From contig NZ_FTNC01000017.1 of the NCBI RefSeq assembly GCF_900156285.1, positions 1-64,000 on the forward strand: 64,000 bases of DNA. The letters run 5' to 3'. This stretch comes from Halanaerobium kushneri. Its GTDB lineage: Bacteria; Bacillota; Halanaerobiia; Halanaerobiales; Halanaerobiaceae. The notes beneath the pieces were generated by a model that had not been told where the DNA came from, did no database searches, and worked only from the letters and a program-made list of their open reading frames with translations. Made by a program: the position numbers and the translations under genes. Shown here in pieces: positions 2,784-42,888 of the stretch; positions within the stretch are counted from its first letter, which is position 1; every line of letters starts with the position of its first letter.

Positions 2784-4385
2784 ATGACTGCAGCTAATCA
2801 GAATGCTATAGAAAATGGAAATACAGTTCTGGGAATTGAGTTTGGTTCAACCAGGATTAAAGCTGTTTTGCTTAATGGAGATGATAATCAGATAATAGCA
2901 TCCGGAAGTCACAGTTGGGAAAATAGTTATGTGGACGGAATTTGGACCTATAGTTTAGATGAAATTTGGCAGGGACTTCAGGCCAGTTATAGGGATATGG
3001 CTAAAAATATAGAATCAGAATATGGATTGAAGCTAAAAAAGATAGCTTCTATTGGTTTTAGTGCTATGATGCATGGTTATATGCCTTTTAATAAAGAGGG
3101 CGAACTTTTAGTTCCTTTTAGAACCTGGCGTAATAATATAACTGAAGAGGCAAGTCGAAAATTAACTGAAAAATTTAATCATCCAATTCCTCAGCGCTGG
3201 AGCATTGCTCATTTATATCATGCAATTTTAAATGAAGAAGCTCATATTTCTGAAATTGATTTTTTAACAACTCTCGAAGGTTTTATTCACTGGAAATTAT
3301 CGGGAGAAAAAGTAATTGGAATTGGAGAAGCATCAGGCATGTTTCCGGTTGATGTTAAAACTAAGAATTATAATCAAAAAATGTTGGAGAAATTTAGTGA
3401 TTTAATTTCCGAGTATAATCTTCCCTGGGAAATTAATGAAATTTTACCTGAACCACTGCTGGCAGGTGAAAATGCAGGAACTTTGACTAAGGAAGGTGCT
3501 AAACTACTTGATCCAACAGGAAATTTAGAAGCTGGAAGTTTAATGTGTCCTCCAGAAGGAGATGCCGAAACCGGTATGGTTGCTACAAATAGTGTTGCTC
3601 CAAGAACTGGTAATGTATCTGCAGGAACTTCAGTTTTTGCAATGGTAGTTTTAGAAGATAAACTTTCTAAGCCTCATCCCGAACTTGATCTGGTAATGAC
3701 TCCTACCGGTAAATTGGTAGCAATGGCTCATTCTAATAATTGTTCATCTAATTTAGATAAGTGGATCAATGTTTTTAAAGAGGCTATTGAGGAGTTAGGA
3801 TTTGAAGTTGATATAAATAATCTTTATGAGACTTTATATAATAAAGCATTAGAAGGAGACAAAGATTGTGGAGGTCTCTTAGCTTATGGTTATTTATCAG
3901 GTGAACATATAACTGGGTTTGAAGAAGGACGTCCATTATTTACAATGGAATCAGACAATAATTTTAATCTGGCTAATTTTATGCGGGTTAATCTTCAGAG
4001 TGCCTTAGGTGCAATGAAGATGGGAATGGATATTCTTTTAAAAGAAGAAAATGTTAAACTTGACAAAATGCTTGGCCATGGTGGCTTATTTAAAACTGAA
4101 GGTGTAGCTCAGAAATTTATGGCAGCAGCAGTTAATGCTCCTGTTTCAGTTATGGAAACTGCTGGAGAAGGTGGAGCCTGGGGAATTGCTCTCCTGGCAT
4201 CCTATCATTTAAATAAAGAAGAGAGCCAGAGTCTGGAAGTATTTTTAAATCAAAATATTTTTAGTAACCAAGATGAGAAAGTAATAGCTCCAGATCCAGA
4301 AGATGTAGAAGGATTTGAAGCCTTTATGCAGCGTTATAAAGATGGTCTGGCCATTGAAAGAGCTGCTGTAGAGAACTTAAAATAA
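2784..4385 (+). CDS. FGGY-family carbohydrate kinase, probable L-ribulokinase
   Basis: The 533-aa protein has the ASKHA kinase fold: an N-terminal phosphate loop [12 protein letters not shown] near residue 18, substrate-domain motifs ([13 protein letters not shown]), the likely catalytic D260 in PEGDAETGM, and a C-terminal ATP-binding [10 protein letters not shown] region. It is not the classical AraB or XylB sequence type but a divergent FGGY group. Position directly after araD and araA makes ribulokinase the best inference, completing the arabinose route. A xylulokinase role, or both, cannot be excluded because no other FGGY kinase lies in the window. Confidence 0.8.
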
Positions 4386-15956: not shown

Positions 15957-15998
15957 AGAACAATAACAATAGTGAATTAATTTAAGGCTTGAATTAAT
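15935..15998 (+). promoter_or_regulatory. Composite pentose promoter before lacI-1
   Basis: GCAGGAAT (15935-15942), 15 nt, GAACAATAA (15958-15966). Read as sigma-A it is TTGCAG, 17 nt, TAGAAC. Ten nt further is the palindrome 15976-15998: ATTAATTTAAG, one central base, CTTGAATTAAT, with a single mismatch between arms. The palindrome would overlap the transcription start, which fits repression. Confidence 0.7.
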
Positions 15999-22045: not shown

Positions 22046-23464
22046 ATGAAAAAACAACAAGTTAACCCCTATTTACCATCCTGGGAGTATATTCCTGATG
22101 CTGAACCTTATGTTTTTAAAGATCGAGTATATATTTACGGTTCTCATGATCGATTTAATGGTCACGCATACTGTTTGAATGATTATGTCTGCTGGTCGGC
22201 ACCGGTGGAAGATCTCTCAGACTGGCGCTATGAAGGAGTAATTTATAGAAAAACAGAAGATCCACTCAATCCTGAAGGAGCCATGTGTCTTTACGCTCCT
22301 GATGTGACTGTTGGATCTGATGGCAGGTATTATCTTTATTATGTTCTTGATAAAGTTCAGATTGTTTCGGTAGCTGTTTCTGACACTCCGGTTGGAGAGT
22401 ATGAGTTTTATGGTTATGTACATTATGCAGACGGTACCCGTCTGGGCGAAAAAGAAGGGGATCAGCCGCAGTTTGATCCAGGTGTTATTACTGAAGGAGA
22501 TAAAACTTATTTATATACCGGCTTCTGTCAAAAAGATGATAAATCAAGAAATGGTGCTATGGCCACTGTTTTAGATAAAGATATGCTGACAATAATTGAA
22601 GAACCGAAATTTGTAATTCCCAGTGAGCCATATAGTGAAGGAACAGGTTTTGAAGGGCATGAGTTTTTTGAAGCCCCATCAATTAGAAAAAGAGGAGATA
22701 AATATTATTTAATTTATTCTTCAATTTTAATGCATGAGTTATGCTATGCAACCAGTAAGAATCCAACCGAAGGCTTTAAATACCAGGGCACCATTGTCAG
22801 TAATGCTGATATTGGTATTGACAGCTATAAAGATGCTGATAAGCCAATGTATTATGGCGGCAATAACCACGGCAGTATTGTTGAGATAAATGATAATTGG
22901 TATATCTTTTATCACCGCCATACTAATGGAACTAATTTCAGCAGACAGGCCTGCCTGGAGAAAATAGAATTTACTGCTGAAGGTCAAATCCCTCAGGTAG
23001 AAATAACTTCTTCTGGTTCTAAAGATAATCCTCTGCTTGGTGTTGGAGAATATCCGGCTTATCTTGCCTGTAACTTATTTACTGATGAGGAATCAGTTTA
23101 TACAGATTTTAGTGGAGCCTGGATGAATAAGCAGTTTCCTAAAATAACTCAGGATGGAAAAGACGGAGATAAGGAGATTGGATATATTCAAAATATGAAA
23201 GATTCAGCGACAGCTGGTTTTAAATATTTCGACTGTCATAAGATAAATAAAGTTAAGATTAAAGTTCGAGGCTACTGCAGCGGCAAATTTGAAGTTAAGA
23301 CTGTCTGGGATGGTGAAGTTTTGGCTGAGATATCGGTTAAGTCCTCAAATATCTGGCAGGAGTATTCAGCAGCTGTTAAAATTCCGGATGGAGTACAGCC
23401 TCTATATTTCACTTATAGAGGAGAAGGAAGTGCAAGCTTAGCTTCATTTACTCTGCTTCCATGA
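22046..23464 (+). CDS. GH43 glycosidase with C-terminal carbohydrate-binding-like domain
   Basis: A 472-aa enzyme. Residues 1-320 form the GH43 propeller with D18 (DAEPYVF), D144 (FDPGVI) and E209 (FEAPSI) as the catalytic set; residues about 345-472 look like a CBM6-type beta-sandwich (FKYFDCHKINKVKIKVRGY). No signal peptide, so cytoplasmic, most likely an arabinofuranosidase or xylosidase acting on imported arabinoxylan fragments. The ribosome site (AAAGG) is weaker than those of its neighbours. Confidence 0.88.
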   Translation: MKKQQVNPYLPSWEYIPDAEPYVFKDRVYIYGSHDRFNGHAYCLNDYVCWSAPVEDLSDWRYEGVIYRKTEDPLNPEGAMCLYAPDVTVGSDGRYYLYYVLDKVQIVSVAVSDTPVGEYEFYGYVHYADGTRLGEKEGDQPQFDPGVITEGDKTYLYTGFCQKDDKSRNGAMATVLDKDMLTIIEEPKFVIPSEPYSEGTGFEGHEFFEAPSIRKRGDKYYLIYSSILMHELCYATSKNPTEGFKYQGTIVSNADIGIDSYKDADKPMYYGGNNHGSIVEINDNWYIFYHRHTNGTNFSRQACLEKIEFTAEGQIPQVEITSSGSKDNPLLGVGEYPAYLACNLFTDEESVYTDFSGAWMNKQFPKITQDGKDGDKEIGYIQNMKDSATAGFKYFDCHKINKVKIKVRGYCSGKFEVKTVWDGEVLAEISVKSSNIWQEYSAAVKIPDGVQPLYFTYRGEGSASLASFTLLP

Positions 23465-23555: not shown

Positions 23556-23619
23556 GCAGGAATCAGTTCACAGGTGGCGAATAATATAAGTATAGCATTA
23601 ATTTAAGTCTTAAATTAAC
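23556..23619 (+). promoter_or_regulatory. Composite pentose promoter before GH120
   Basis: GCAGGAAT (23556-23563), 15 nt, GAATAATAT (23579-23587), then palindrome 23597-23619: ATTAATTTAAG, T, CTTAAATTAAC, the most symmetrical copy. The preceding block GTCTGAAATTTCTT matches the copies at 15919 and 31786. Confidence 0.72.
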
Positions 23620-23678: not shown

Positions 23679-25664
23679 ATGAGTTTTGAATACCACGTTT
23701 CTAAAAAGGGATCAGATTTTAATTCCGGAACTAAAGAAGAACCATTTTTAACAATCAATAAAGCTGCAGCTGCAGCTCAGGCCGGAGATACTGTAATTGT
23801 TCACGAAGGTACATACAGAGAGTGGGTCAAACCACAGAATAGAGGTTTAAGTGAAAGCAGGAGAATTACCTATCAGGCAGCTGAAGATGAGAAAGTAGTG
23901 ATTAAGGGTTCAGAAAAAATAAACGATTGGGAGAATGTTGAAGATTCAATCTGGAAAACAGAAATAGATAATCAATTTTTCGGTGAATACAATCCCTACC
24001 AGAAAGAAATTTTTGGTGACTGGTTGATTCACACCGGCGGCCAGGAAACTAAACACTTGGGTGATGTTTATTTAAATGGGATGTCTTTTTATGAAGTCGA
24101 CTCATATGATAAATTAGTTGATCCAGAAGTTAAAACTGAAATTAAAGATGACTGGACTGGTAAAATAGATAAAGTTAAAAATCCGGAGCAGACAAAATAT
24201 CTCTGGTATGTTGAAGTTGACGAAGAAAAAACAACGATTTATGCTAACTTTCATGAGTCTGATCCAAATCAGGAGTTAGTAGAAATTAATGTGAGGAAAG
24301 CCTGTTTTTATCCAGAAACAAATGGTATTGATTATATCACTGTTAGGGGGTTCGAGATGGCCCAGGCGGCAACTCCCTGGACACCTCCAACAGCCGACCA
24401 GCCCGGTCTAATTGGACCTAACTGGGCAAAAGGATGGATTATTGAAGATAATATTATTCATGACTCTAAATGCAGTGCAATCAGTATTGGAAAAACAGCT
24501 GCTACAGGAGATAATTTCCGCAGTAAGAGACAGGATAAACCTGGCTATAAATATCAGATTGAATCAGTTTTTGAAGCAGAAGCTTACGGCTGGAATAAAG
24601 ATAATGTTGGCTCTCATATTATTAGAAATAACGAAATATATGACTGCGGCCAGAATGGAGTTGTCGGCCATTTAGGCTGTATATTCAGTGAAATATACAA
24701 TAATCACATTTATAATATTGCTTTAAAAAGAGAATTTTACGGCCATGAAATTGCAGGAATTAAGCTGCACGCGCCCATTGATGTAGAGATTCATGATAAT
24801 CGTATCCATAATTGTTCATTGGGAACCTGGATGGACTGGCAGACACAGGGAACCAGAATCAGCAGTAATCTTTATTATAATAATAACCGCGACTTATTTA
24901 TTGAGGTCAGCCACGGACCTTATATTGTTGATAATAATATTCTGGCTTCTGATTATGCCCTGGATAATTTCTCTCAGGGAGGAGCCTATGTTAATAATTT
25001 AATAGCAGGAAAGATGGTACACCGAAAAATATTAAAACGCTCTACCCCCTATCACCAGCCTCACAGCACTAAAATTAAGGGTTTTACAGTAATTTTAGGT
25101 GGAGATGATCGTTTTTATAATAATATTTTTATTGGTTTAGAGGACCTTGATGATATTTTTGAAGTTGATCACGGAGCAACTTCTAATGACAAAGCAAAAG
25201 AGGGTGTAGGAACTGCTCATTTTAATAATTATACAGCTTCTTTAGAAGAATATTTTAATAAAGTTCATCAGAAGCCTGGTGATGTAGAGATATTTATGGA
25301 TACCAATCAGCCTGTATATATAAATAATAATCTTTATCTTAATGGAGCACTCCCGTTTGAAAGAGAGGAAAGAAACTATATTGAAGCTGATTTTAATCCA
25401 GAATTATCAATCAGGGAATCAGGAGAAGATGTCTATCTGGAATGTAAGCTGACATCAGATTTTGAAAATATTGAAGCAGATATCCAAAGTACCGAAAATT
25501 TTGAAAAAGTTAGGATTACTGACGCTGACTTTGAAAATAAGTTGGGAGAAAAAATAGTTTTTGATAAAGATTATTTAGGCGAAAACTTTATCCCAAAAGC
25601 ATCAATTGGTCCATTGGCTGTATTGAAAAATGGTAATAATAGTGTTAAAGTTTGGAGCAAATAA
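23679..25664 (+). CDS. GH120 beta-xylosidase (cytoplasmic)
   Basis: Releases xylose from xylo-oligosaccharides. The 661-aa right-handed beta-helix protein closely resembles, from memory, XylC of Thermoanaerobacterium saccharolyticum, the founding GH120 enzyme. The nucleophile is D386 in WMDWQTQGTR and the acid/base E409 in FIEVSHGP; their 23-residue spacing equals that of D382/E405 in XylC. No signal peptide. It is monocistronic, with its own composite promoter and a second such promoter between it and ABC 3. The name alginate lyase-like or parallel beta-helix protein may be given by automatic tools. Confidence 0.93.
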   Translation: MSFEYHVSKKGSDFNSGTKEEPFLTINKAAAAAQAGDTVIVHEGTYREWVKPQNRGLSESRRITYQAAEDEKVVIKGSEKINDWENVEDSIWKTEIDNQFFGEYNPYQKEIFGDWLIHTGGQETKHLGDVYLNGMSFYEVDSYDKLVDPEVKTEIKDDWTGKIDKVKNPEQTKYLWYVEVDEEKTTIYANFHESDPNQELVEINVRKACFYPETNGIDYITVRGFEMAQAATPWTPPTADQPGLIGPNWAKGWIIEDNIIHDSKCSAISIGKTAATGDNFRSKRQDKPGYKYQIESVFEAEAYGWNKDNVGSHIIRNNEIYDCGQNGVVGHLGCIFSEIYNNHIYNIALKREFYGHEIAGIKLHAPIDVEIHDNRIHNCSLGTWMDWQTQGTRISSNLYYNNNRDLFIEVSHGPYIVDNNILASDYALDNFSQGGAYVNNLIAGKMVHRKILKRSTPYHQPHSTKIKGFTVILGGDDRFYNNIFIGLEDLDDIFEVDHGATSNDKAKEGVGTAHFNNYTASLEEYFNKVHQKPGDVEIFMDTNQPVYINNNLYLNGALPFEREERNYIEADFNPELSIRESGEDVYLECKLTSDFENIEADIQSTENFEKVRITDADFENKLGEKIVFDKDYLGENFIPKASIGPLAVLKNGNNSVKVWSK

Positions 25665-25717: not shown

Positions 25718-25780
25718 GCAGGAATATGTATAAATATGTCGAAATATATATTTAGAAGTTAATTTACTTGTTAAATTAAC
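25718..25780 (+). promoter_or_regulatory. Composite pentose promoter before ABC 3
   Basis: GCAGGAAT (25718-25725), 15 nt, GAAATATAT (25741-25749), then palindrome 25758-25780: GTTAATTTACT, T, GTTAAATTAAC. Confidence 0.68.
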
Positions 25781-25818
25781 ATTTAAATTAAATTCTTTTC
25801 ATATATATTAAATTTAAG

Positions 25819-25877: not shown

Positions 25878-27161
25878 ATGAAAAAATCATTATCTTTAGT
25901 TGTGACAGTATCTATGTTTTTAGTTATTTTATTAAGTGTTTCTGCTATTGCTCAAGAAGAAATTGTTCTATGGGATATAACTACTGAAGCCGAGAGTGAA
26001 TTACCAGTAATACAGGACGCAATTGCTAGATTTGAGGCAGATAATCCTGAGTATACAATAAGACATGTACCAACAAGTAATGATGATTATAAAACAAAAT
26101 TACAGGTAGCAATGGGAGCAAATAATGAACCAGATATTTTTATGTCCTGGGGTGGAGGTCCATTAAAAGAATATGTTGATGCAGGTAAAGTAATGGATAT
26201 GACCAAGGCGTTAAAGCAGGATGACTGGATTGAAAGATTTGTGCCGGCCGGTTTAGAAATTGCCAGATTTGATGGAAATTATTATGCTGTGCCAATTACC
26301 GGTATGAGAGCAGTTTTAATGTTTTATAGAACTGATATTTTTGAAGAAGTAGGAGTAGAAATTCCAGAAACCTATGAAGATTTTAAAGATGTAATTGTTC
26401 AGCTAAAGGATGCAGGGTATATTCCACTTTCTCTGGCAAACAAAAATAGATGGACTGGATCAATGTATTATATGTATTTAGTTGACCGCATAGGTGGAAA
26501 AGAAGCTTTTCTTAATGCGGCAAATAGAAATGGTGGATCATTTGCAAGTGAAGCTTTTGTAAGAGCAGGAGAAGTTATTCAGGAACTGGTTGATCTTGGA
26601 GCATTCCCTCCAGGTGTAAATGGACTTGATGAAGACCAGGGACAATCAAGACAGCTCCTTTATGCTGATCGGGCAGCGATGTATTTGATGGGAGACTGGG
26701 CATATGGATTAATTAAAAATGAGAATCCAGCTATGTTAGAGAATTTCAGTTTCTTTAGATTCCCAGTTTTTGAAGATGGAAAAGGAGATCCAAGCAATTT
26801 AGTTGGTTCACCAGGTGGAAATATGTACAGTGTTGCCAAAAGCAGTGAGCATCAGGAAGCAGCTATTGAGTTTCTAAAATATTTATCAGATGAAACTGCA
26901 GCAAAACAGTTAGTAGATCTTGGCAACCTTGCTCCTTTTAGAGGTGTAGAAGAATATTTGGATGATCCATTTATGATTGATATATATAATGCGTTGAATA
27001 ATGCTAATTATGTTCAATTATATTATGATCAGTATTTACCACCTCAAATAGCTCAAGCACACCTAGATACAATTCAGGGTTTATTTGGAAAGACCATGAC
27101 TCCTGAGGAAGCAGCTCAAATGGTAGAAGAAGAAGCACAAAAATACTTTAATGAACAATAA
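25878..27161 (+). CDS. ABC 3 sugar-binding protein
   Basis: A 427-aa family 1 binding protein with signal peptide ending VSAIAQE, no lipobox. It is paralogous to the ABC 4 protein at 32002 over its whole length (shared KNRWTGSMYYMYLVDRIGG type block, GVNGLDEDQGQSR, DRAAMYLMG). Two permeases and then a dehydratase and an aldolase gene follow, so the ligand may be a xylo-oligosaccharide or, judging by the two enzymes, a sugar acid. Specificity is not visible in the sequence. Confidence 0.86.
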   Translation: MKKSLSLVVTVSMFLVILLSVSAIAQEEIVLWDITTEAESELPVIQDAIARFEADNPEYTIRHVPTSNDDYKTKLQVAMGANNEPDIFMSWGGGPLKEYVDAGKVMDMTKALKQDDWIERFVPAGLEIARFDGNYYAVPITGMRAVLMFYRTDIFEEVGVEIPETYEDFKDVIVQLKDAGYIPLSLANKNRWTGSMYYMYLVDRIGGKEAFLNAANRNGGSFASEAFVRAGEVIQELVDLGAFPPGVNGLDEDQGQSRQLLYADRAAMYLMGDWAYGLIKNENPAMLENFSFFRFPVFEDGKGDPSNLVGSPGGNMYSVAKSSEHQEAAIEFLKYLSDETAAKQLVDLGNLAPFRGVEEYLDDPFMIDIYNALNNANYVQLYYDQYLPPQIAQAHLDTIQGLFGKTMTPEEAAQMVEEEAQKYFNEQ

Positions 27162-27239: not shown

Positions 27240-28109
27240 ATGCAGAAGGTTAGTAAACTAACGATATTTTTATTTTTACTACCGGCATTATTAATTTTTT
27301 CACTTTATATGGTAGCACCAATACCTCTTTCTGCATTTTATTCTTTTTTTAGGTGGAAAGGATTTGGAGAAAGGGTTTTTGTTGGCTTAAGTAATTGGGT
27401 GGAATTAATTGGGGATGGTATATTTCATAAGGCATTATTTAATAATTTCAAGTTGGTGTTTTTATCTTTATTTGGGCAGTTACCAATTGCACTGGCATTA
27501 GCTATTTTACTGGCTAAAAAAACAAGAATTACCGATATTTTAAAAACTATCTATTTTGTTCCTCTTTTAATGTCTTCTGTTGCTGTTGCAACTTTGTGGA
27601 GTAATATTTATGATCCTAATTTTGGGCTTTTGAATATGTTTTTACAAACAATCGGGTTTGAGAATCTATTTATCGATTATCTTGGGAATCCTAAATTAGC
27701 CTTATATTCTGTAATTGTAGCAATTAACTGGCGTTATATTCCCTTCTATATGATTCTATTTCTGGCAGCGATAAAAAATATACCCGACGAGCTTTATGAA
27801 GCTTCAAGAGTTGATGGAGCTTCAAAATGGGAAAATTTCCGCTATATTACACTGCCTTTGCTCAGACCTACAATAATTAATGCCAGTGTACTTTCTCTTG
27901 TAGGTTCCTTAAAGTTTTTTGATATTGTATATGTTTTAACAGGTGGTGGGCCTAATAATGCTTCAGAATTAATGGCAACCTATATGTATAAAAACGCCTT
28001 CAATAGCTTGAGAATGGGTTATGGCAGTACTATTGCTCTTGCCTTATTTATAATTGCTTTTACTTTTTCAATTATATTTATGAAAGTTACAAAAAAGGGG
28101 GCTAAATAA
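27240..28109 (+). CDS. ABC 3 sugar permease
   Basis: A 289-aa CUT1 permease with six hydrophobic segments and EAA motif ELYEASRVDGASKWENF then LPLLRPTI. Start follows TAGGAGG. Its stop overlaps the next start by one base (TAATG). Paralogue of the ABC 4 permease at 33346. Confidence 0.92.
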   Translation: MQKVSKLTIFLFLLPALLIFSLYMVAPIPLSAFYSFFRWKGFGERVFVGLSNWVELIGDGIFHKALFNNFKLVFLSLFGQLPIALALAILLAKKTRITDILKTIYFVPLLMSSVAVATLWSNIYDPNFGLLNMFLQTIGFENLFIDYLGNPKLALYSVIVAINWRYIPFYMILFLAAIKNIPDELYEASRVDGASKWENFRYITLPLLRPTIINASVLSLVGSLKFFDIVYVLTGGGPNNASELMATYMYKNAFNSLRMGYGSTIALALFIIAFTFSIIFMKVTKKGAK

Positions 28110-28930
28110 TGTCAAAGACTGCAAAGATCATAGTAATATTACTGGCAGGTATCTGGTTATTGATAACACTTTATCCATTTATCTTTATGCTGCAGACCAG
28201 CATGAAAACTAATATGGAGTATTTTACTACCTCAGTTTGGGCATTTCCAGAAAATATAAGTCTAGATAATTATTTAACCGCTATGAATTCAGGTTTTATA
28301 AGATTTTATTTAAACAGTTTATTTGTAACTATTACTTCACTTGTAATTATTATTATCTCAGCTTCAATGGCAGCCTACATGATTGCTAAAATAGATTTTA
28401 AGTTAAGTAATTCAGTTTTTTCATTTTTTCTGGCTGGAATGATGATTCCGATTCATATTACTTTAATTCCTGTTTATCGAATGACTCAAACTATGGGGTT
28501 ATATGATAAACTAACAGGACTAATTGGTCCTTATGTAGCTTTTAGCTTACCTATTTCAATATTTATTTTAACAGGATTTATTGCAGAAATTCCAAGAGAA
28601 CTAGAGGAAGCAGCCTATATTGATGGGGCAAATATCTTTCAGATTTTTACTAAAATTATTTTTCCTTTAATCAAACCAGCAGTTTCTACAGTCGCAATTT
28701 ATAATTTGGTTTTATTATGGAATGAATTTATATATGCTCTGGTTTTAATTTCTAATCCAGATAAATGGAATTTGACCTTAGGATTATGGAATTTTCAGGG
28801 GCAATATGGAACTAATGTACCAATGGTTATGACTGGAGTTATGCTCTCTGTTTTACCACTCTTATTATTCTACATTTTCCTTCAGGAAAAAGTAATTAAG
28901 GGTATGACAGCAGGAGCAGTTAAGGGTTAA
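28109..28930 (+). CDS. ABC 3 sugar permease
   Basis: A 273-aa CUT1 permease with EAA motif ELEEAAYIDGANIFQIF and FPLIKPAVS, ending IKGMTAGAVKG. Translationally coupled to the upstream gene. Paralogue of the ABC 4 permease at 34244. The 106-nt gap to the dehydratase holds no terminator. Confidence 0.92.
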   Translation: MSKTAKIIVILLAGIWLLITLYPFIFMLQTSMKTNMEYFTTSVWAFPENISLDNYLTAMNSGFIRFYLNSLFVTITSLVIIIISASMAAYMIAKIDFKLSNSVFSFFLAGMMIPIHITLIPVYRMTQTMGLYDKLTGLIGPYVAFSLPISIFILTGFIAEIPRELEEAAYIDGANIFQIFTKIIFPLIKPAVSTVAIYNLVLLWNEFIYALVLISNPDKWNLTLGLWNFQGQYGTNVPMVMTGVMLSVLPLLLFYIFLQEKVIKGMTAGAVKG

Positions 28931-29036: not shown

Positions 29037-30791
29037 ATGCTTAAAAGTCAAAAAATTCGAGAAAGCAGTCCTGAACTTGATGCTTTAAAAATGGGGATGG
29101 ACTGGAAGGAAGACGATTTATCTAAAGCTCAGATTTTAGTAAGCAGCACCTATGGTTATGGGCATCCAGGCAGTTTTCACCTTGATCAGCTGGTTGAAGA
29201 GGCACTGCAGAGTTTAAAAAAGCAGGGAGCCAAGGGTGCTTCAATGATAGTCAGTGACATTTGTGACGGTATTGCTCAGGGACATGATGGAATGAATTAT
29301 TCGCTGGTTTCTAGAGAAATGATAGCAAATATGGTAGAAGTACAGGCAAAAGCAGCTCCTTATGATGGAATAATGATGATCTCAGCCTGTGATAAAGCAG
29401 TTCCTGCCCATCTGCTTGCAGCAGCAAGATTAAATATGCCGATAATTCAGGTGCCCGGGGGTTCAATGGCGCTGGGTAAGAAAAAGACCACAGTTGATAT
29501 GACTGCCCGTGATTATGCCAGATATAAAAGAGGAGAAATCAGTAAAGAAAAATATTTAGAAACTCAAAAGTTGGCCTGTCCCTCCTGTGGTGCCTGCCAG
29601 TTTATGGGTACAGCTTCTACTATGCAGGTGATGGCTGAGGCACTTGGACTGGCTTTACCGGGTTCAGCTTTAATCCCAGCCAATGGTCCCTATTTAAAAG
29701 AAATGACTGATCTGGCAGCCTCCTTTTTAACTGAAGCTGTAAAAAAAGATCTTAAAGTCAAAGATATAGTAACTAAAAAGTCAATTGAAAATGCAATTGC
29801 AGTCCATGCTGCAATAGGCGGCTCAAGTAATGCTCTGCTGCATCTGCCGGCCTTTGCTCATGAACTTGGCATAGAAATTGACGGCAACTTATTTGATGAG
29901 ATTAACCGTAAAGTACCATTTTTAGTTAACACAATTCCCAGTGGGGATTATCCAACTCAGTATTTCTGGTATGCTGGCGCTGTTCCGGAAATTATGGAAA
30001 GAATTAAAGAACACCTCCATCTTGATGTTTTAACAGTAACGGGAAAAACGCTGGGTGAAAATCTTCAAAGCTTAGCAGACTTCTCCTATCTCAAAGGAAT
30101 GGAAGAAAAACCAGCTTTAATGCCGGAAAAAGAAAAAGTGATTTTCTCAATGGACTCTCCGATTAATGAAGAGGGGGCAATTGCAGTTTTAAAAGGAAAT
30201 CTGGCTCCAGAAGGCTCAGTGGTAAAGCATTCTGCCCTTCCAGAAGAGATGAAAGATTTTGTTGGTCGGGCAAGAGTTTTTGATCAAGAAGAGGAAGCAA
30301 TGGAAGCAGTTTTAAATGGGGATATAGTTTCCGGTGATGCTGTAATTATTCGCTATGAAGGACCTAAGGGAAGTGGAATGCCTGAAATGTATTATACAAC
30401 AGAGGCTATTGCTTCTGACCCTAAATTAAATAAGACAACAGCTCTAATAACTGATGGTAGATATTCCGGGGCCACCCGGGGACCGGCAATCGGACATGTT
30501 TCGCCTGAAGCTGCTTCGGGAGGGCCGATAGCTCTTGTTAAAGAAAATGATCTAATCGAAATTGATATAGAAAATAGAAGCATAAATATTATTGGAGTCA
30601 GTGGTGAAGAAAAAAGTAAAGAAGAAATCAGTCAGATTCTAAATGAGCGAGCAAAAGATTGGGTTAAGCCGGAGCCAAAATTTTTAAATGGGGTACTGGG
30701 TATCTTTACTCAGCTTGCAGCTTCTCCAATGAAGGGCGCCTATATCGATACTGAATATTTAAGTAATTTAATAAATAAAAGTACTAAATAA
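29037..30791 (+). CDS. IlvD/Edd-family dehydratase, probable aldonate (pentonate) dehydratase
   Basis: A 584-aa iron-sulphur dehydratase. Cluster cysteines are C76 (DICDG), C118 (SACDKA) and C187 (CPSCGACQFMGTA, with extra C181 and C184). The family removes water from 2,3-dihydroxy acids: dihydroxy-acid dehydratase in branched amino-acid synthesis, or 6-phosphogluconate, xylonate or arabinonate dehydratase. Placement between a sugar importer and a DapA-family aldolase, with no ilv genes near, favours an aldonate substrate giving a 2-keto-3-deoxy acid. Start ATG 29037; the GGGAGAGG before it is well spaced. Confidence 0.8.
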   Translation: MLKSQKIRESSPELDALKMGMDWKEDDLSKAQILVSSTYGYGHPGSFHLDQLVEEALQSLKKQGAKGASMIVSDICDGIAQGHDGMNYSLVSREMIANMVEVQAKAAPYDGIMMISACDKAVPAHLLAAARLNMPIIQVPGGSMALGKKKTTVDMTARDYARYKRGEISKEKYLETQKLACPSCGACQFMGTASTMQVMAEALGLALPGSALIPANGPYLKEMTDLAASFLTEAVKKDLKVKDIVTKKSIENAIAVHAAIGGSSNALLHLPAFAHELGIEIDGNLFDEINRKVPFLVNTIPSGDYPTQYFWYAGAVPEIMERIKEHLHLDVLTVTGKTLGENLQSLADFSYLKGMEEKPALMPEKEKVIFSMDSPINEEGAIAVLKGNLAPEGSVVKHSALPEEMKDFVGRARVFDQEEEAMEAVLNGDIVSGDAVIIRYEGPKGSGMPEMYYTTEAIASDPKLNKTTALITDGRYSGATRGPAIGHVSPEAASGGPIALVKENDLIEIDIENRSINIIGVSGEEKSKEEISQILNERAKDWVKPEPKFLNGVLGIFTQLAASPMKGAYIDTEYLSNLINKSTK

Positions 30792-30817
30792 TAATTATTG
30801 ATGTGAGGAGGATTTAA

Positions 30818-31714
30818 TTGATTAAAGGAATTATAACACCAACGATCACAGTTTTTGATGAGGATAAAAATATTGATTTTGAGGCAACAGAAGAACATAT
30901 AGAAAATTTAATTGAAGCTGGTGTAAATGGGATTTTATTTTTAGGGAGCATTGGAGAATTTTTTGCAATGACTTTGGCAGAAAAGAAGAAGTTAATTTCT
31001 TTTGCTGTAAAAACTGTAAACAAGCGGGTGCCTGTTTTAGTAGGTACAGGTGGTACAGCTGCCGAAGATGTAATAGAGTTGAGTAATTTTGCTCAAGCTG
31101 AAGGAGTGGATGGAGCAGCTGTAATCACCCCTTATTTTTTCCAGTTTAACCAGCAGACCCTCTATAATTATTACAGTCATATTGCTCATAATGTAGAATT
31201 AGATTTATATATATATAATTTTCCTGCCCGCAGTGGAGTAAACATTGATCCCCAAACAGTTTATAAGCTGGCAAGTGAATATAAAAATATTGTGGGAATT
31301 AAAGATACAATGGATACAATCAGCCATACCAGAGAGTTAATTCAAAAAGTTAAAAAAGAGCTGGAGAAAGAATTTGCTGTTTATTCCGGATTTGATGAAT
31401 ACTTTTTACCAAACCTCCTGAATGGAGGAGATGGCTTAATCGGCGGTTTATCTAATATAGCCCCTGAACTTTTTGCTGAATTTTATAAGTCTTACCAAAA
31501 AGAAGACTTTAAGAAAATTAATGAAATATCCAATAAAATTAATATGATGATGGAAATTTACAGTCTTTCTGATCCTTTTTTTCCGGCAATTAAAAAAGCT
31601 GTTTCTCTCAGAGGGAGTAATCTAAACGCAGCCTGTAAAGAACCGGTTGGTCTCTTGAATGAATCACAGAGCAAAAATATTAAAAAAATACTTAAAAAAG
31701 TAAATTTAACCTAA
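30818..31714 (+). CDS. DapA-family 2-keto-3-deoxy-acid aldolase or dehydratase
   Basis: A 298-aa TIM-barrel lyase of the dihydrodipicolinate synthase/N-acetylneuraminate lyase family. The Schiff-base lysine is K162 (VGIKDTMD) and the partner tyrosine Y133 (YIYNFPARSG); GSIGEF near residue 45 replaces the GTTGE of true DapA. It begins with TTG 30818, spaced from GAGGAGG, only 26 nt after the dehydratase. The pair suggests cleavage or dehydration of a 2-keto-3-deoxy pentonate or hexonate, as in YagE-type enzymes. Lysine biosynthesis is unlikely in this setting. Confidence 0.82.
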   Translation: MIKGIITPTITVFDEDKNIDFEATEEHIENLIEAGVNGILFLGSIGEFFAMTLAEKKKLISFAVKTVNKRVPVLVGTGGTAAEDVIELSNFAQAEGVDGAAVITPYFFQFNQQTLYNYYSHIAHNVELDLYIYNFPARSGVNIDPQTVYKLASEYKNIVGIKDTMDTISHTRELIQKVKKELEKEFAVYSGFDEYFLPNLLNGGDGLIGGLSNIAPELFAEFYKSYQKEDFKKINEISNKINMMMEIYSLSDPFFPAIKKAVSLRGSNLNAACKEPVGLLNESQSKNIKKILKKVNLT

Positions 31715-31728
31715 AAAATCTAATTAAA

Positions 31729-31768
31729 GGAAAAACTACCTCTTAAATGGTGGTTTTTCTTTTTTTTA
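31729..31768 (+). terminator. Terminator after the ABC 3 operon
   Basis: GGAAAAACTACC (31729-31740) pairs with GGTGGTTTTTCT (31749-31760), loop TCTTAAAT, then a T run. Same stem and loop as at 15863. Confidence 0.85.
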
Positions 31769-31821: not shown

Positions 31822-31875
31822 TGAATAATATTTATAGAGAGTTAATTTACTTCTTAAATTAAAGCTTAAATTAAC
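31800..31875 (+). promoter_or_regulatory. Composite pentose promoter before ABC 4, with extra half-site
   Basis: GCAGGAAT (31800-31807), 15 nt, GAATAATAT (31823-31831), palindrome 31841-31863 (GTTAATTTACT, T, CTTAAATTAAA) and a further right half CTTAAATTAAC at 31865-31875, 12 bp after the first. Confidence 0.72.
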
Positions 31876-32001: not shown

Positions 32002-33279
32002 ATGAAGAAATTTTCAATTTTGTCACTTGCTTTATTAATGGTATTTTCTCTATTTTCGGTTACAGTTATGGCTCAGGATGAGGTAAATTTAACATTATGG
32101 GATATTAGAACTGCTTCTGACCAGGTTACTCCTGCTTTACAGGATGCAATTGAGCGTTTTGAAGCTGATAACCCAAATGTAAATATTGAGCATGTACCTA
32201 CTCAAAATGATAATTACAAAACTAAGCTGAGAACAGCTATGTCAGCTGATAATGCACCAGATCTATTTATGACCTGGGGTAGTGCCAGCTTAGAAAGATA
32301 TGTTGATGCTGATAAAGTTTATTCATTAGAATCACATATGACAGAAGATTGGGAAAGTAATTTTATGCCAGCTGCTATGGATTTAGGTCGGGTAAATGGT
32401 GAGCTGTATGGTGTTCCAGTAACCAATGTTTCTCCAGCACTTGTCTGGTACAGAACTGATCTGTTTGAAGAATATGGTCTGGAAGTACCAGAAACATATG
32501 AAGAACTAAAAAATGTTGTAAAAACATTTAAAGAAAATGGAATAACTCCTTTTGCTCTGGCTAATAAAAACAAATGGACAGGTTCAATGTACTTTATGTA
32601 TCTGGTAGATAGAATTGGTGGACCGGAAGCTCTGCAGCAGGCAATTAGCAGAAAAGGTGCTTTTAATGACAAACCATTTATTGAAGCAGGTAGAAGAATT
32701 CAGGAATTAGTAGAAATGGGAGCATTCCCTGATGGTGTTAATGGTCTTGATGAAGACGCAGGTCAGTCCAGAACTTTACTATATACCGACCGGGCAGCAA
32801 TGTATTTAATGGGAAGCTGGGCATATTCTTCCTTCAAAAATGAAGCACCTGATATGTTAGATCAGTTTAGTTTCTTTAACTTCCCGGCAGTAGAATCCGG
32901 CAAAGGCGATCCTTCTAACTTAGTTGGTACACCTGGAGATAACTATTATTCAGTTTCTACTAAGGCAGCAAACAAAGAAGCGGCAGTTGAATTCTTAAAG
33001 TATTTAACTGATTCCAAAATGGGTGAAGAGTTAATCAATATTGGTAATATTCCGCCATTTACCGGTGTTGCAGAAAAGATTGACGATCCAATTATGAAGA
33101 AAATTTATAATTCCAGTCAGGAAGCAAATCATATTCAGCTCTGGTATGATCAGACATTACCATTAGAATTGGCACAGGTTCATTTAAATACAACTCAAGC
33201 TTTATTTGGTATGGAAATAACACCAGAAGAGGCAGCCAATCAGATGGAAGAAGCAGCTCAAGAGTACTATGGTGAATAA
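32002..33279 (+). CDS. ABC 4 sugar-binding protein
   Basis: A 425-aa family 1 binding protein, signal peptide ending VTVMAQD without lipobox. Paralogue of the ABC 3 protein at 25878. It is followed by two permeases and a GH3 beta-xylosidase, which points to xylo-oligosaccharides. An antisense frame over residues 107-224 is a shadow. Confidence 0.88.
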   Translation: MKKFSILSLALLMVFSLFSVTVMAQDEVNLTLWDIRTASDQVTPALQDAIERFEADNPNVNIEHVPTQNDNYKTKLRTAMSADNAPDLFMTWGSASLERYVDADKVYSLESHMTEDWESNFMPAAMDLGRVNGELYGVPVTNVSPALVWYRTDLFEEYGLEVPETYEELKNVVKTFKENGITPFALANKNKWTGSMYFMYLVDRIGGPEALQQAISRKGAFNDKPFIEAGRRIQELVEMGAFPDGVNGLDEDAGQSRTLLYTDRAAMYLMGSWAYSSFKNEAPDMLDQFSFFNFPAVESGKGDPSNLVGTPGDNYYSVSTKAANKEAAVEFLKYLTDSKMGEELINIGNIPPFTGVAEKIDDPIMKKIYNSSQEANHIQLWYDQTLPLELAQVHLNTTQALFGMEITPEEAANQMEEAAQEYYGE

Positions 33280-33296
33280 AATAAGTAATTTAATAG

Positions 33297-33321
33297 GCAG
33301 AGGGGATTTAATCCTCTCTGC
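33297..33321 (+). terminator. Intercistronic hairpin after ABC 4 binding protein
   Basis: GCAGAGGGGATT (33297-33308) pairs with AATCCTCTCTGC (33310-33321) with a single G-T pair; the loop forms from the central AT bases. No T tract. Confidence 0.65.
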
Positions 33322-33345
33322 TCTAATTTAAGAGGTGTTCTAATT

Positions 33346-34233
33346 ATGAATAAAAAAGAATTAATGAACAATAAATATTTTATTGCAGCTCTGTTTTTAC
33401 TACCTGCCGTTATTTTTTCTCTGGTTTATTTGATTATCCCAATTCCTCTTTCAACCTATTATTCATTCTTTAAATGGGATGGTATAGGGGCAATGGAGTT
33501 TTTGGGTCTCGATAACTGGTCAAAATTGTTGAGTGATCCAATATTCTGGTCTTCGATGGCTAATAACTTTAAACTGGTTTTAATTTCACTGGTTGTGCAG
33601 ATTCCCATAGCACTGTTTTTAGCTGTATTGCTGACTAGAAAAATTAAAGGAGCAAGTTTTTTTAAGACTATCTTTTTTGTGCCGATGCTTTTATCTTCAA
33701 TTGCGGTAGCTTTTCTCTGGCGCTATATGTATGATCCAACTTTTGGACTAATAAATAGTTTTCTAAACCTGGTTGGGCTGGAACAGTTAACCAGGAGCTG
33801 GCTTGGAAACTCAGATATTGCTTTTTATTCAGCATCTGCTCCTATCCAGTGGAGGTTTATTCCTCTTTATATGATTATTTTTATGGCGGCTATTTCTAAT
33901 ATACCAAAACAGCTTTATGAAGCTGCGGAAATAGATGGAGCTAATAACTGGCAGTCATTTTTCTATGTTACTTTACCAATGCTCAGATCTACAGTTGTTA
34001 ATGCATCTGTTTTAATAATTGTTGGTTCACTTAAATATTTTGCCATGATTTTTGCTTTAACCGGTGGTGGACCAAATCATGCTTCCGAATTAATGGCTAC
34101 CTATCTCTATACAAAATCTTTTACAGAAATGAATATGGGCTATGGTAGTACAATATCTGTAGCATTATTTTTAGTTGCCCTTATAGTATCAGTTGTATTT
34201 TTGAATTTCAGTAAAAAAGATGTCAGGAATTAG
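33346..34233 (+). CDS. ABC 4 sugar permease
   Basis: A 295-aa CUT1 permease, six membrane segments, EAA motif QLYEAAEIDGANNWQSF then LPMLRSTV. Paralogue of 27240. Stop and next start are close, so translation is probably coupled. Confidence 0.92.
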   Translation: MNKKELMNNKYFIAALFLLPAVIFSLVYLIIPIPLSTYYSFFKWDGIGAMEFLGLDNWSKLLSDPIFWSSMANNFKLVLISLVVQIPIALFLAVLLTRKIKGASFFKTIFFVPMLLSSIAVAFLWRYMYDPTFGLINSFLNLVGLEQLTRSWLGNSDIAFYSASAPIQWRFIPLYMIIFMAAISNIPKQLYEAAEIDGANNWQSFFYVTLPMLRSTVVNASVLIIVGSLKYFAMIFALTGGGPNHASELMATYLYTKSFTEMNMGYGSTISVALFLVALIVSVVFLNFSKKDVRN

Positions 34234-34243
34234 GTGAGTGATT

Positions 34244-35068
34244 ATGATTAATAAATTAAAACAGTTAGTTATTTATATATTTTTGTCAGTCTGGCTGCTG
34301 ATTACAGGATATCCACTTGTTTTTTTGGTCCAGAACAGTTTTAAAATCAGAATGGAATTTTTTCGCAATCCAGTCTGGTCTCTGCCAGAAAAATTTACCT
34401 GGCAAAATTATATTGAGGTAATGAAATCAGGTTTCTATATTTACTTTATCAACAGTATTATAGTCTGTTTTATTTCAGTTGCAATTATTATTATAGTTTC
34501 TGCTCTGGCCAGTTACGCAATTTCTAGAATAGATTTTAAATTTAATAAAATTGTTTATATTTTATTTCTGGCAGGAATGATGATTCCAATTCATTCAACC
34601 TTAATTCCTATTTATAAGATAACACTTTCAATGGGATTATATGATAAACTTTCAGCTTTAATTGGCCCCTATGTTGCTTTTAGTCTTCCAATTTCGGTTT
34701 TTATTTTGACCGGATTTATCAATGATATTCCTTATGAACTGGAGGAAGCAGCGATTATAGATGGAGCCAGCAGGTTTAGAATTTTTAGGGATATAATTTT
34801 ACCACTGGTTAAACCGGCAATTGCTACAGTTGCAATTTATAATCTCACACTGCTCTGGAACCAATTTGCCTATGCTCTTGTCTTAACTTCAAGTCCGAGC
34901 AAAAGAATTTTAACTCTCGGTTTATTTGAATTTCAGGGACAGCACGGTATTAATATTCCTTTAACTTTGACAGCTTTATTTCTTTCTGTATTACCCTTGA
35001 TTCTGCTCTATGTTTTCCTGCAGGAACATATTATTAAAGGAATGACAGCTGGTGCTTTAAAAGGATAA
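34244..35068 (+). CDS. ABC 4 sugar permease
   Basis: CUT1 permease, 274 aa from ATG 34244, EAA motif ELEEAAIIDGASRFRIF, LPLVKPAIA, end IKGMTAGALKG. A GTG at 34238 is also in frame but lies directly against the GGTGA (34233-34237) that serves as ribosome site, so ATG 34244 is preferred. Confidence 0.9.
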   Translation: MINKLKQLVIYIFLSVWLLITGYPLVFLVQNSFKIRMEFFRNPVWSLPEKFTWQNYIEVMKSGFYIYFINSIIVCFISVAIIIIVSALASYAISRIDFKFNKIVYILFLAGMMIPIHSTLIPIYKITLSMGLYDKLSALIGPYVAFSLPISVFILTGFINDIPYELEEAAIIDGASRFRIFRDIILPLVKPAIATVAIYNLTLLWNQFAYALVLTSSPSKRILTLGLFEFQGQHGINIPLTLTALFLSVLPLILLYVFLQEHIIKGMTAGALKG

Positions 35069-37480: not shown

Positions 37481-37556
37481 GCAGGAATTTTAAAAATTGT
37501 ATAGAATCTATATATTAGAGACTTAATTTATAACTTAAATTAAAACTTGAATTAAT
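37481..37556 (+). promoter_or_regulatory. Composite pentose promoter before xylFGH, with extra half-site
   Basis: GCAGGAAT (37481-37488), 15 nt, GAATCTATA (37504-37512). As sigma-A: TTGCAG, 17 nt, TAGAAT, the best -10 of the set. Palindrome 37522-37544 (CTTAATTTATA, A, CTTAAATTAAA) plus CTTGAATTAAT at 37546-37556, 12 bp on. Confidence 0.72.
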
Positions 37557-37656: not shown

Positions 37657-38691
37657 ATGCGAAAAAGTATTATTATTTCAACATTAGTAGCGGTATTATT
37701 ATTTTTAGGATCTTTTGGAGTAATGGCCCAGGATGGTATTACAATTGGATTGTCAATGGATAATTTGAGACTGGAAAGATGGCAGCATGATCGTGATATT
37801 TTTGTAAATAAGGCAGAAGAAATGGGAGCAGAGGTATTAGTTCAATCTGCTAATGGAGATGACACAGTTCAATTATCACAGGCAGAAAATTTAATTACCC
37901 AGGGAATTGATGTTTTAGTAGTTGTTCCTCATAATGGTAAGGTGATGGGAAGTATAGTTAGAGAAGCCCATGCAAATAATGTACCTGTACTTGCCTATGA
38001 TAGAATGTTAATGGATAGTAAAGTAGATTATTATCTCTCTTTTGATAATGTTCGTGTAGGTGAATTACAGGCAGAATTTTTAGTTGATAAACAGCCTACA
38101 GGAAATTACTTTTTACTTGGAGGTTCTCCAACCGATAATAATGCTAAACTTTTCCGTCAGGGACAGATGAATATTTTACAGCCTTATATTGATCAGGGCA
38201 AAATAAATATTGTTGGTGATCAGTGGGCAAAAGACTGGTTACCACAGGAAGCATTAGGTATTGTAGAAAATGCTCTGACAGCTAATAATAATGATATTGA
38301 TGTTATTGTTGCTTCTAATGATAGTACTGCCGGTGGAGCAATTCAAGCTCTTGAAGAGCAGGGTTTAGCCGGAGAAGTTTTAGTTTCTGGTCAGGATGCT
38401 GACCTTGCGGCCTGTCAGAGAATTGTTGAAGGTACTCAAACAATGACAATTTATAAACCAATTCAGGATTTAGCTAGTAGAGGTGCAGAAATAGCAGTTA
38501 ATATGGCCCAGGGTAAAGAAATAGACACAAATGGTGCAATTAATAATGGTGAATATGATGTACCATCAGTTTTATTAACACCAATTCAGGTTCATAAAGG
38601 GAATATGGTGGATACAGTTATAGAAGATGGATTCCACGAAATGGAAGAAGTATATAAAAATGTACCAAAATCTGAATGGCCTGAACAGTAA
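37657..38691 (+). CDS. xylF: D-xylose-binding periplasmic protein
   Basis: A 344-aa class I sugar-binding protein (ribose/xylose type). Signal peptide ends FGVMAQD, no lipobox. The mature start ITIGLSMDNLRLERWQHDR is the xylose-binding signature, and the sequence continues with the VPVLAYDRM and SFDNVRVGE motifs of XylF. xylG and xylH follow. Delivers xylose to the XylGH importer. Confidence 0.93.
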   Translation: MRKSIIISTLVAVLLFLGSFGVMAQDGITIGLSMDNLRLERWQHDRDIFVNKAEEMGAEVLVQSANGDDTVQLSQAENLITQGIDVLVVVPHNGKVMGSIVREAHANNVPVLAYDRMLMDSKVDYYLSFDNVRVGELQAEFLVDKQPTGNYFLLGGSPTDNNAKLFRQGQMNILQPYIDQGKINIVGDQWAKDWLPQEALGIVENALTANNNDIDVIVASNDSTAGGAIQALEEQGLAGEVLVSGQDADLAACQRIVEGTQTMTIYKPIQDLASRGAEIAVNMAQGKEIDTNGAINNGEYDVPSVLLTPIQVHKGNMVDTVIEDGFHEMEEVYKNVPKSEWPEQ

Positions 38692-41436: not shown

Positions 41437-41513
41437 GCAGGAATTTTTTGTTCGGCCTTGAATATTATAAACTAGAGAGTTAATTTAAAACTTAAATTAA
41501 TACTTGAATTAAT
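41437..41513 (+). promoter_or_regulatory. Composite pentose promoter before xylA, with extra half-site
   Basis: GCAGGAAT (41437-41444), 15 nt, GAATATTAT (41460-41468), palindrome 41479-41501 (GTTAATTTAAA, A, CTTAAATTAAT) and CTTGAATTAAT at 41503-41513, 12 bp on. Confidence 0.72.
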
Positions 41514-41568
41514 ATTGATGTTAATGTTTCAGACTTATATTTTCTTACAAAATGGAGGTAATCAAATT

Positions 41569-42888
41569 ATGAAAAATGTTTTTAAAGATTTTAAAAAGGT
41601 AAAATATGAAGGACCAGAATCAGATAATCCAATGGCATTTAAGTATTATAACCCGGAAGAAAAAATTGCGGGCAAAACAATGGAAGAACACTTAAGATTC
41701 TCAATCGCTTACTGGCATACATTTGCGGATACAGGTGAAGATCCATTTGGTGCTGGGACCAGAGTTTACCCCTGGGCAGATATTAGTGATCCTTTAGAAA
41801 GAGCCAAGGCCAAAGTTGAAGGAGCCTTTACCTTTATGGATAAGCTGGGAGCTCCATATTTCTGCTTCCATGATCGTGATGTAGCTCCTGAAGGAAAAAC
41901 AGTTGCCGAAAGCTACAAAAATTTAGATACTATCGTTGATTTAATTGAAGAGAAGATGAACGAAACAGGTATAAAGCTGCTCTGGGGAACAGCTAATATG
42001 TTTACCAATCCTCGTTTTATGAATGGTGCTTCTACTTCTCCTAATGCAGATGTATTTGCCTTTGCTGCCGCTCAGGTTAAAAAGGCTATGGAAGTAACCA
42101 AAAAACTTGGTGGTCAAAACTATGTATTCTGGGGTGGTCGTGAAGGTTATGAAACACTTTTAAATACAAATATGGCCCTGGAACAAGATAATTTGGCCCG
42201 TTTTTTAGAAATGGCTGTAGATTATAAAGAAAAAATTGGTTTTGATGGTCAGCTATTGATTGAACCAAAACCCAAAGAGCCAACTAAGCATCAGTATGAT
42301 TTTGATGCAGCAAATGTGATTGCCTTCTTAAGAAAATATGATTTAGATGAGCACTTTAAAGTTAATCTGGAGGCAAATCATGCAACCCTGGCTGGACATA
42401 CCTTTGAGCATGAGCTTCACTATGCTAGAATTAATGATATGCTGGGAAGTGTAGATGCAAATCAGGGTGATTTATTACTCGGCTGGGATACAGACCAGTT
42501 CCCAACTAATATTTATACAACAACTCTTGCTATGTATGAAATACTTAAAAATAATGGTCTGGGTAAAGGGGGGCTCAATTTTGATGCTAAAGTTCGCCGT
42601 CCTTCCTTCAAAATGAAAGATTTATTCTATGGTCATATTGCTGGAATGGATGCCTTTGCTAAGGGCTTAAAAATTGCCAATAAATTATTAGAAGATAAAG
42701 TATTAGAAGATTTTGTGGCTGAAAGATATGCAAGTTATGAAAGTGGAATTGGTAAGAAGATTGTAAATAAAGAGGTTGGTCTGGAAGAATTAGCTGAATA
42801 CGCTATTGAACTTGGTGAAGTTGAAAATTATTCCGGACATCAGGAAATGCTGGAAGCGAAACTGAATCAGTATATTTTAAATAATTAA
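41569..42888 (+). CDS. xylA: D-xylose isomerase
   Basis: Converts D-xylose to D-xylulose. 439 aa, class II length. Catalytic H101 in [35 protein letters not shown] and the metal-ligand region [14 protein letters not shown] and GWDTDQFP are all intact. The ATG at 41569 follows GGAGG; the longer frame from 41515 has no ribosome site and would start inside the operator region. It stands alone between its promoter and a terminator; the usual partner xylB is missing. Confidence 0.97.

Follow-up and report, generated by a model that had tools for sequence, protein, structure and literature searches.

What is a pair of genes for an IlvD/Edd-family dehydratase and a DHDPS/NAL-family lyase doing in an operon for sugar import? 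The question was raised by a locus of Halanaerobium kushneri on the stretch of 64,000 nucleotides analyzed here (NZ_FTNC01000017.1, positions 1 to 64,000; the window), which is contig C17 of the host genome (G000; 3.2 Mb, 53 contigs). The window is an arabinoxylan island containing araA, araD, a sugar kinase gene and genes of GH51, GH43, GH120, GH8, GH10, GH67 and GH3, as well as several ATP-binding cassette (ABC) transporters, xylA, uxaC and uxuA. Both enzyme genes were real open reading frames (ORFs) with the expected Pfam matches. The dehydratase gene (29037–30791, + strand) encodes a polypeptide of 584 amino acid residues with ILVD_EDD_N (358 bits) and ILV_EDD_C (209.5 bits) domains. It is followed after 26 bp by the lyase gene (30818–31714, + strand), which starts with TTG and encodes 298 residues with a DHDPS domain (249 bits). 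Our results suggest, with a probability of about 0.6, that the pair is a Dahms-type module under XylR-like control, in which a probable D-xylonate dehydratase and a predicted 2-keto-3-deoxy-aldonate aldolase of the YagE type would convert D-xylonate via 2-keto-3-deoxyxylonate (KDX) to pyruvate and glycolaldehyde.

The dehydratase possesses the cluster-type cysteines, the catalytic serine and both Pfam domains of the IlvD/Edd family. Its C76, C118, C187 and S477 were invariant in all 14 aligned rows, as were C181 and C184. The first-pass annotation had named C76, C118 and C187 as cluster cysteines and K162 and Y133 as key residues of the lyase. These residues are where it put them, but C76 is not at the PCN/TCN cysteine position of the aligned [2Fe-2S] dihydroxy-acid dehydratases; it lies within a CDG motif common to Edd, YagF and YjhG of E. 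coli and the host's own IlvD. The scores of the dehydratase were under the curated NCBIfam cut-offs of all eight IlvD/Edd subfamilies matched, including those of IlvD (TIGR00110, 530.8 bits vs. 618.15), the YjhG/YagF D-xylonate dehydratases (TIGR03432, 357.8 vs. 808.15), L-arabinonate dehydratase (NF009559, 336.1 vs. 882) and the 6-phosphogluconate dehydratase Edd (TIGR01196, 271.3 vs. 708.25).

A genome family search identified three IlvD/Edd genes in the host. One, on contig C28, is a true IlvD (787.6 bits vs. the cut-off of 618.15) and adjoins the genes for acetolactate synthase and ilvC, and another, on contig C13, is 65% identical to the window dehydratase. The objection that the first-pass annotation had raised against itself, that the window enzyme might act on dihydroxy-isovalerate and be the only IlvD of the genome, therefore fails. 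For the same reasons a branched-chain amino-acid route, in which the dehydratase would be a dihydroxy-acid dehydratase and the lyase DapA, is highly improbable. The best NCBIfam matches carry those names and the lyase scores above the dapA cut-off, but the dehydratase does not reach the ilvD cut-off, the true IlvD stands in the ilv operon on C28, a stronger DHDPS-family match is found on C28 as well (303.8 vs. 248.1 bits for the window lyase), and the pair stands behind a xylose-regulon operator.

Among solved structures (PDB), the best relatives of the lyase were the chains of E. coli YagE (216 bits; the next protein scored 165), to which it is 39% identical. The Schiff-base K162 as well as Y133, the GSIG motif at residues 43–46 and Y106 align with their counterparts in YagE. 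The roles of this lysine, the two tyrosines and the GxxG motif are described in the available part of PMC9795676. The Tyr-to-Gln change that the same part reports for L-2-keto-3-deoxy-pentonate dehydratases is absent from the lyase.

A putative operator links the pair to xylose. An inverted repeat, TTAATTTA-N5-TAAATTAA, was spotted upstream of the genes of two ABC transporters, ABC3, which directly precedes the pair, and ABC4, which follows it. Before ABC3 it forms two overlapping inverted repeats (25759–25791; this and the following sites are given without strand), of which the one at 25759–25779 is perfect and the one at 25771–25791 has one mismatch. The perfect site is 119 bp before ABC3 and thus ahead of the whole ABC3–dehydratase–lyase unit. 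A pattern search also found XylR-type operators before ABC4 (31842–31874), the GH120 gene (23598–23618), the xylose ABC genes (37523–37555; xylF at 37657–38691) and xylA (41480–41512; the gene at 41515–42888). A copy with one mismatch is located behind a response-regulator gene and ahead of a LacI gene (15977–15997). A related pattern matched the window 19 times, compared with a mean of 1.34 in shuffled sequences, and none of 100 shuffles reached 19.

The operator was also conserved in three relatives from the same genus (G015, G016 and G017). With up to one mismatch allowed and counted per strand, their genomes contained 17, 22 and 19 sites, respectively, vs. 6, 9 and 7 matches of the reversed control, including those before ABC4, the xylose ABC genes and xylA. 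A site before a ROK-family gene followed by the xylulokinase gene (xylB) was found in all four genomes, and a site upstream of a transketolase gene in the three relatives (gene family confirmed for G015). Moreover, a perfect site is found 69 bp before the dehydratase gene itself in G015 and a site precedes a GH43–GH120–dehydratase–lyase operon in G017; in G016, an ISL3-type transposase gene (L040:16909-18114) is inserted between the site and the same operon. Other listed sites were in unrelated or coding places, and a perfect site in a coding region of the host (C28:103404) was set aside as a chance match. The pattern search found no site beside the SGL lactonase genes discussed below, and the gene cluster around the C13 paralog had a single match with two mismatches, inside the dehydratase gene.

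The operator shared with xylA, the xylose ABC genes, ABC4, GH120 and ROK-xylB, together with its conservation in the relatives, suggests that the pair belongs to an XylR-like xylose regulon. The ROK protein, whose best NCBIfam matches were NagC and Mlc, both under their cut-offs, would bind the site. Similar to the XylR regulons of Firmicutes, which cover xylA, xylB, xylFGH, xyloside genes and xylR itself (PMC2873477, available text), the proposed regulon has a ROK-type regulator, xylA, xylB, xylFGH, xyloside genes and autoregulation. Different from them, it includes a dehydratase and an aldolase, neither of which appears in the available main text of that paper.

A gene for an aldo-keto reductase of the DkgA/YvgN kind (C24:79641-80500; L200) was found directly behind a perfect XylR-type site. 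In G000, G016 and G019 this operator is perfect; G015 and G017 have a degraded copy with three mismatches, and G013 and G018 have none within that limit. The enzyme could reduce glycolaldehyde.

Which sugar acid would the pair act on? The xylose operator points to D-xylonate, and we assign this substrate with moderate confidence. The dehydratase would act on a C5 aldonate, most likely converting D-xylonate to 2-keto-3-deoxy-D-xylonate, and the lyase would cleave the latter to pyruvate and glycolaldehyde. Both genes would be read from the ABC3 promoter under the ROK regulator that also controls xylose uptake, xylA, the separate ROK-xylB pair, the beta-xylosidases and the xylo-oligosaccharide (XOS) transporters. 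Given this co-regulation with the xylose genes, the module would run beside the isomerase route. The earlier proposal of a non-phosphorylating dehydratase and lyase pair alongside the isomerase route is supported.

A gluconate or other C6 aldonate was the main competing substrate to be weighed. Relatives of the dehydratase were collected from a contig database, and the clostridial-type matches among the best 80 of 580 were 53–60% identical to it. Within six ORFs of the 78 distinct dehydratase genes in this set, GntR was present near at least 31, GntP and 2-keto-3-deoxy-6-phosphogluconate (KDPG) aldolase each near at least 21, a gene similar to 2-keto-3-deoxygluconate (KDG) kinase near at least 20 and a DapA-family lyase near at least 6, the last from 3 loci; these counts are lower bounds because contigs end. 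For instance, a relative with 55% identity on a plasmid of Eubacterium eligens is found behind a gluconate:H+ symporter. In the window, 36 of the 47 main ORFs were scanned with Pfam, and the other 11 were assigned as ABC permeases or a binding protein from their clustering or position, with NCBIfam run on two of these. Among the scanned ORFs no GntP, KDG kinase or KDPG aldolase was recognized; the lyase is found instead.

For the tree, 111 clustered dehydratases were reduced to 110 of at least 500 residues and to 104 after removal of identical cores, to which four E. coli references were added (108 rows). In this tree, made in quick mode, 20 Halanaerobiales rows (support 99) were sister to, not nested in, 75 clostridial-type rows (support 99). 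The Halanaerobiales rows divided into a lyase-linked type of nine rows, including the window dehydratase (support 100; two of the nine without an adjacent lyase), and a hexonate/TRAP type of 11 rows (support 100). The placement of E. coli Edd, IlvD and YagF/YjhG is unsure because the tool flagged their long branches.

The two types also differed at residue 300. V297, I300, P301 and E318 were found in all seven full-length lyase-linked Halanaerobiales rows, and YagF and YjhG have V/L/P/E at these positions. Residue 300 was Arg in 75/75 clostridial-type rows, Lys in 11/11 Halanaerobiaceae hexonate-type rows and Ile in the nine rows of the window clade. This comparison left out 11 of the 108 rows (two of G030, the host's own IlvD, L082, L084, the second copies of L097, L142 and L162, both of L109, and L100) and set the four E. 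coli references apart; a separate tally of residue 300 covers all 108.

In a hexonate route, the dehydratase would act on gluconate or another C6 aldonate and the lyase would cleave KDG to pyruvate and glyceraldehyde, replacing KDG kinase and KDPG aldolase. The GntP, Eda and KDG-kinase-like neighbors of the sister clade agree with this route, as do YagE itself, a KDG aldolase (PMC9795676, available part), and the surroundings of the 65% identical paralog. The paralog belongs to a hexonate-type cluster on C13 (23.2–31.8 kb; L004:4245-12833) that also contains GntR, a galactonate-dehydratase-type enolase, a putative Ni-dependent hexonate epimerase, a TRAP transporter and a glycerol-dehydrogenase-like iron-containing alcohol dehydrogenase (Fe-ADH); the enolase and the putative epimerase both scored above their NCBIfam cut-offs. 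However, the pair itself is found behind an XylR-type operator in a xylan island, and its dehydratase carries Ile at residue 300, which is basic in the hexonate-type rows. Moreover, a KDPG aldolase and, with the C13 copy, a dehydratase of the hexonate type are encoded elsewhere in the genome. Taken together, these points make the hexonate route rather unlikely. The lyase might also have been required to process KDG formed by UxuA, an idea that was abandoned because the genome encodes that KDPG aldolase (C27:38668).

A third possible substrate is L-arabinonate from the side chains of arabinoxylan, which would yield L-2-keto-3-deoxyarabinonate and from it pyruvate and glycolaldehyde. GH51, GH43 and araA/araD are present in the same island, and KDG aldolases of the lyase's family take both pentonate epimers (PMC9795676, available part). 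Given that, even with two mismatches allowed, neither araA nor the first GH51/ABC1 genes were preceded by such an operator, and that the dehydratase score of 336 is far short of the 882 set as cut-off for L-arabinonate dehydratase, this route is quite improbable.

Several observations weigh against D-xylonate cleavage within an XylR-like regulon. The operator pattern was derived from the window itself, and in the host genome it was not enriched when up to two mismatches were allowed (105 matches vs. 107 of the reversed control). The pattern at residue 300 was found post hoc from sequence rows without structural placement. Over all 15 lyase-linked rows, this residue was Ile in 7, Asn, Arg and Thr in 2 each, and Lys and Met in 1 each. 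Ile was also present in one row from Orenia that is accompanied by GntP/Eda. The equivalent residue could not be read in the aldopentonate dehydratases RlADHT and CcXDHT, as an Ensifer query returned only dihydroxy-acid dehydratases in five alignments. The lyase is above the NCBIfam dapA cut-off (TIGR00674, 225 vs. 206.15), and its YNFPAR motif keeps an Arg where YagE and YjhH have Leu; in DapA, the Arg after YNFPA is a substrate-binding residue. Four genomes of family f3 that carry the pair had neither sugar genes nor an operator beside it. Finally, no dehydrogenase or lactonase was recognized in the regulon and no source of xylonate was identified.

The pair was present in 8 of 38 Halanaerobiales genomes, namely the host, the three genus relatives and the four genomes of family f3. 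Of the latter, G002 has the dehydratase open over a 389-residue part only. In the window, it is found directly behind ABC3, with a gap of 106 bp that contains no + strand terminator-like site according to a terminator scan. An intrinsic-terminator-like hairpin right behind the lyase (31726–31763, + strand), the terminator-like site with the longest stem in the stretch, would close the unit. The first-pass annotation was thus right that the pair directly follows ABC3, and its common promoter is plausible because the gap is free of terminators and the hairpin lies behind the lyase.

Its further proposal that ABC3 is a dedicated importer of aldonic acid, free or bound to an oligosaccharide, fared less well and is distinctly unlikely. 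The substrate-binding protein of ABC3 (25878–27161, + strand, PF01547) is of the XOS-binder type, and its closest solved structures were 3vxb, 4g68, 8xba and 3zkk, 'XOS binding protein'. It is followed by permease 1 (27240–28109, + strand, from ORF call and NCBIfam) and permease 2 (28109–28930, + strand), an ORF that clusters with the second permease of ABC4. ABC4, a binding protein with two permeases (32002–35068, + strand), is the transporter that accompanies the pair in each of the three relatives. These lack ABC3, and in them ABC4, GH3 and the xylose ABC genes come after the lyase. The identities between ABC3 and ABC4 proteins were 54–59%, and the transporter of the relatives was ABC4 (87–98%). 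In favor of the proposal, ABC3 adjoins the pair, no terminator-like site was detected in the gap that separates them, and its restriction to this genome could mark ABC3 as a specialized addition. On the other hand, it is missing in three relatives that retain the pair, its binding protein matches XOS binders, and its own operator and a leader similar to that of ABC4 make it look like an inserted ABC4-like cassette. Because ABC3 is absent from the relatives and none of the other genomes among the 38 encodes a match to its binding protein above 56% identity, the best reading is that ABC3 was inserted in this lineage and is not the ancestral partner of the pair.

Where would the acid come from? 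Since no dehydrogenase was recognized in the regulon, the acid may be imported. The simplest reading, after yagEFGH of E. coli, is import of the acid or of xylobionate from which beta-xylosidase would free it. It would enter as free xylonate or as the oxidized reducing end of a xylo-oligosaccharide through an XOS transporter, namely ABC4 and, in the host, perhaps ABC3 as well, after which beta-xylosidase would release xylonate. The first-pass annotation had described the window as lacking both a sugar dehydrogenase and a lactonase. This was borne out in that no SGL lactonase or Gfo/Idh match was present among the 36 ORFs scanned with Pfam, but the window does contain an aldo-keto reductase gene at 50201 and, at 4534, a gene for an AraM-like Fe-ADH.

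Alternatively, the acid could be made inside the cell, where a dehydrogenase would oxidize xylose and an SGL lactonase encoded on contig C27 would open the lactone. This concerns the import part only and is possible, if on the doubtful side. The search for an aldose dehydrogenase elsewhere in the genome yielded a cluster on C27 (L078:9641-12850) of a 2-hydroxyacid dehydrogenase, an Fe-ADH of 426 residues and the SGL lactonase, conserved in five genomes of the genus. Twenty Gfo/Idh/MocA matches were also found, and the surroundings of nine were examined, in which no pairing of aldose dehydrogenase and lactonase was recognized. SGL was above its cut-off in 6 of 12 genus genomes, including all 4 that carry the pair, and the Fe-ADH adjoins it in 5 of the 6. 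This co-occurrence is weak because the four carriers are close kin, and SGL was also found in 2 of the 8 genus genomes without the pair. Moreover, no XylR-type operator was found beside the SGL/Fe-ADH genes, the Fe-ADH is under every NCBIfam cut-off, and oxidation of aldoses at C1 by its family is not established.

Similar to yagE-yagF-yagG-yagH of the CP4-6 prophage, the window combines an aldolase with an IlvD/Edd dehydratase; the E. coli genes also include a putative D-xylonate transporter and a putative xylosidase. The E. coli D-xylonate operon converts D-xylonate via KDX to pyruvate and glycolaldehyde (PMC13279387, available text). Different from the yag operon, the window dehydratase is of another lineage (358 vs. 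the yjhG_yagF cut-off of 808), ABC transporters are present instead of YagG, and control would be of the XylR type together with the isomerase genes, whereas E. coli uses XynR, an IclR-like regulator (PMC12445098, available text).

The neighborhoods with GntP, KDPG aldolase and KDG-kinase-like genes fit the published gluconate dehydratase (GAD) clusters of Blautia and Enterocloster, which contain a gluconate transporter, KDG kinase and KDPG aldolase (PMC11424487, available text), as well as CA_C3604 of C. acetobutylicum, a predicted gluconate dehydratase (PMC4179846, available text). Matched by genera and gene types only, the window dehydratase and the clostridial GAD in all likelihood belong to the same IlvD/Edd branch. 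The clostridial clusters differ by a phosphorylating lower half, Arg300 and linkage to GntR/GntP. The aldopentonate dehydratases of Caulobacter (CcXDHT, 5OYN) and Rhizobium (RlADHT, 5J84) share the family and the reaction type. By motif, C118 (CDK) and C187 (G-x-C) correspond to two of their three cluster cysteines, but the window enzyme has no Cys at the PCN/TCN position, taken as the site of Cys59, and has an Edd-like cysteine set. A literature search, with subscription journals mostly outside its scope, did not turn up any publication about this pair in Halanaerobium, and the available main text of PMC13340142 does not mention xylonate, aldonate or gluconate.

The pair looks like a variant of the known D-xylonate cleavage route, placed under control common to the ordinary xylose genes. 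Database records label this dehydratase branch ilvD, a name under which a sugar-acid branch of anaerobes goes unnoticed. Through the operator, the use of xylan and of sugar acids by a fermenter can be linked in a testable way, and residue 300 provides a marker, likewise testable, to tell C5 from C6 aldonates. If the acid is imported, this would suggest cross-feeding on oxidized xylan in anoxic brines. In a more speculative scenario, which we regard as unlikely, a strict fermenter would import oxidized, aldonic-acid-capped xylo-oligosaccharides from aerobic neighbors under xylose control, trim them with beta-xylosidase and pass the xylonate end to a Dahms module of the clostridial gluconate-dehydratase lineage, while the co-regulated aldo-keto reductase would reduce glycolaldehyde to ethylene glycol and balance NAD(P)H.

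Further arrangements of related dehydratases were also observed. In G017, two hexonate-type copies are ~13 kb apart on contig C1 (L051, L052), each near GntR, enolase-type and transporter genes. Two other genus genomes (L082:8439-13324 and L084:10988-15838) contain a gene for 251 residues, another IlvD/Edd dehydratase, a distant GntP-like permease and a DapA-family lyase; this dehydratase, although above the ilvD cut-off, is probably mis-named IlvD. In Blautia (L142:6989-11415 and L162:6995-12275), tandem dehydratases, the second on a deep branch, are followed by a YagE-like lyase that is 44% identical to that of the window.

Upstream of ABC3, the window contains GH43 (22046–23464, + strand, from Pfam and gene clustering), the first gene of the G016/G017 operon, and a gene for a GH120 beta-xylosidase-type enzyme (23679–25664, + strand, from Pfam), whose stop overlaps the dehydratase start by one base in both relatives. 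In G015, the dehydratase gene comes after the response-regulator gene. Finally, an FGGY kinase gene (2784–4385), located between araD and the AraM-like gene, scored far under the xylulokinase and ribulokinase cut-offs.

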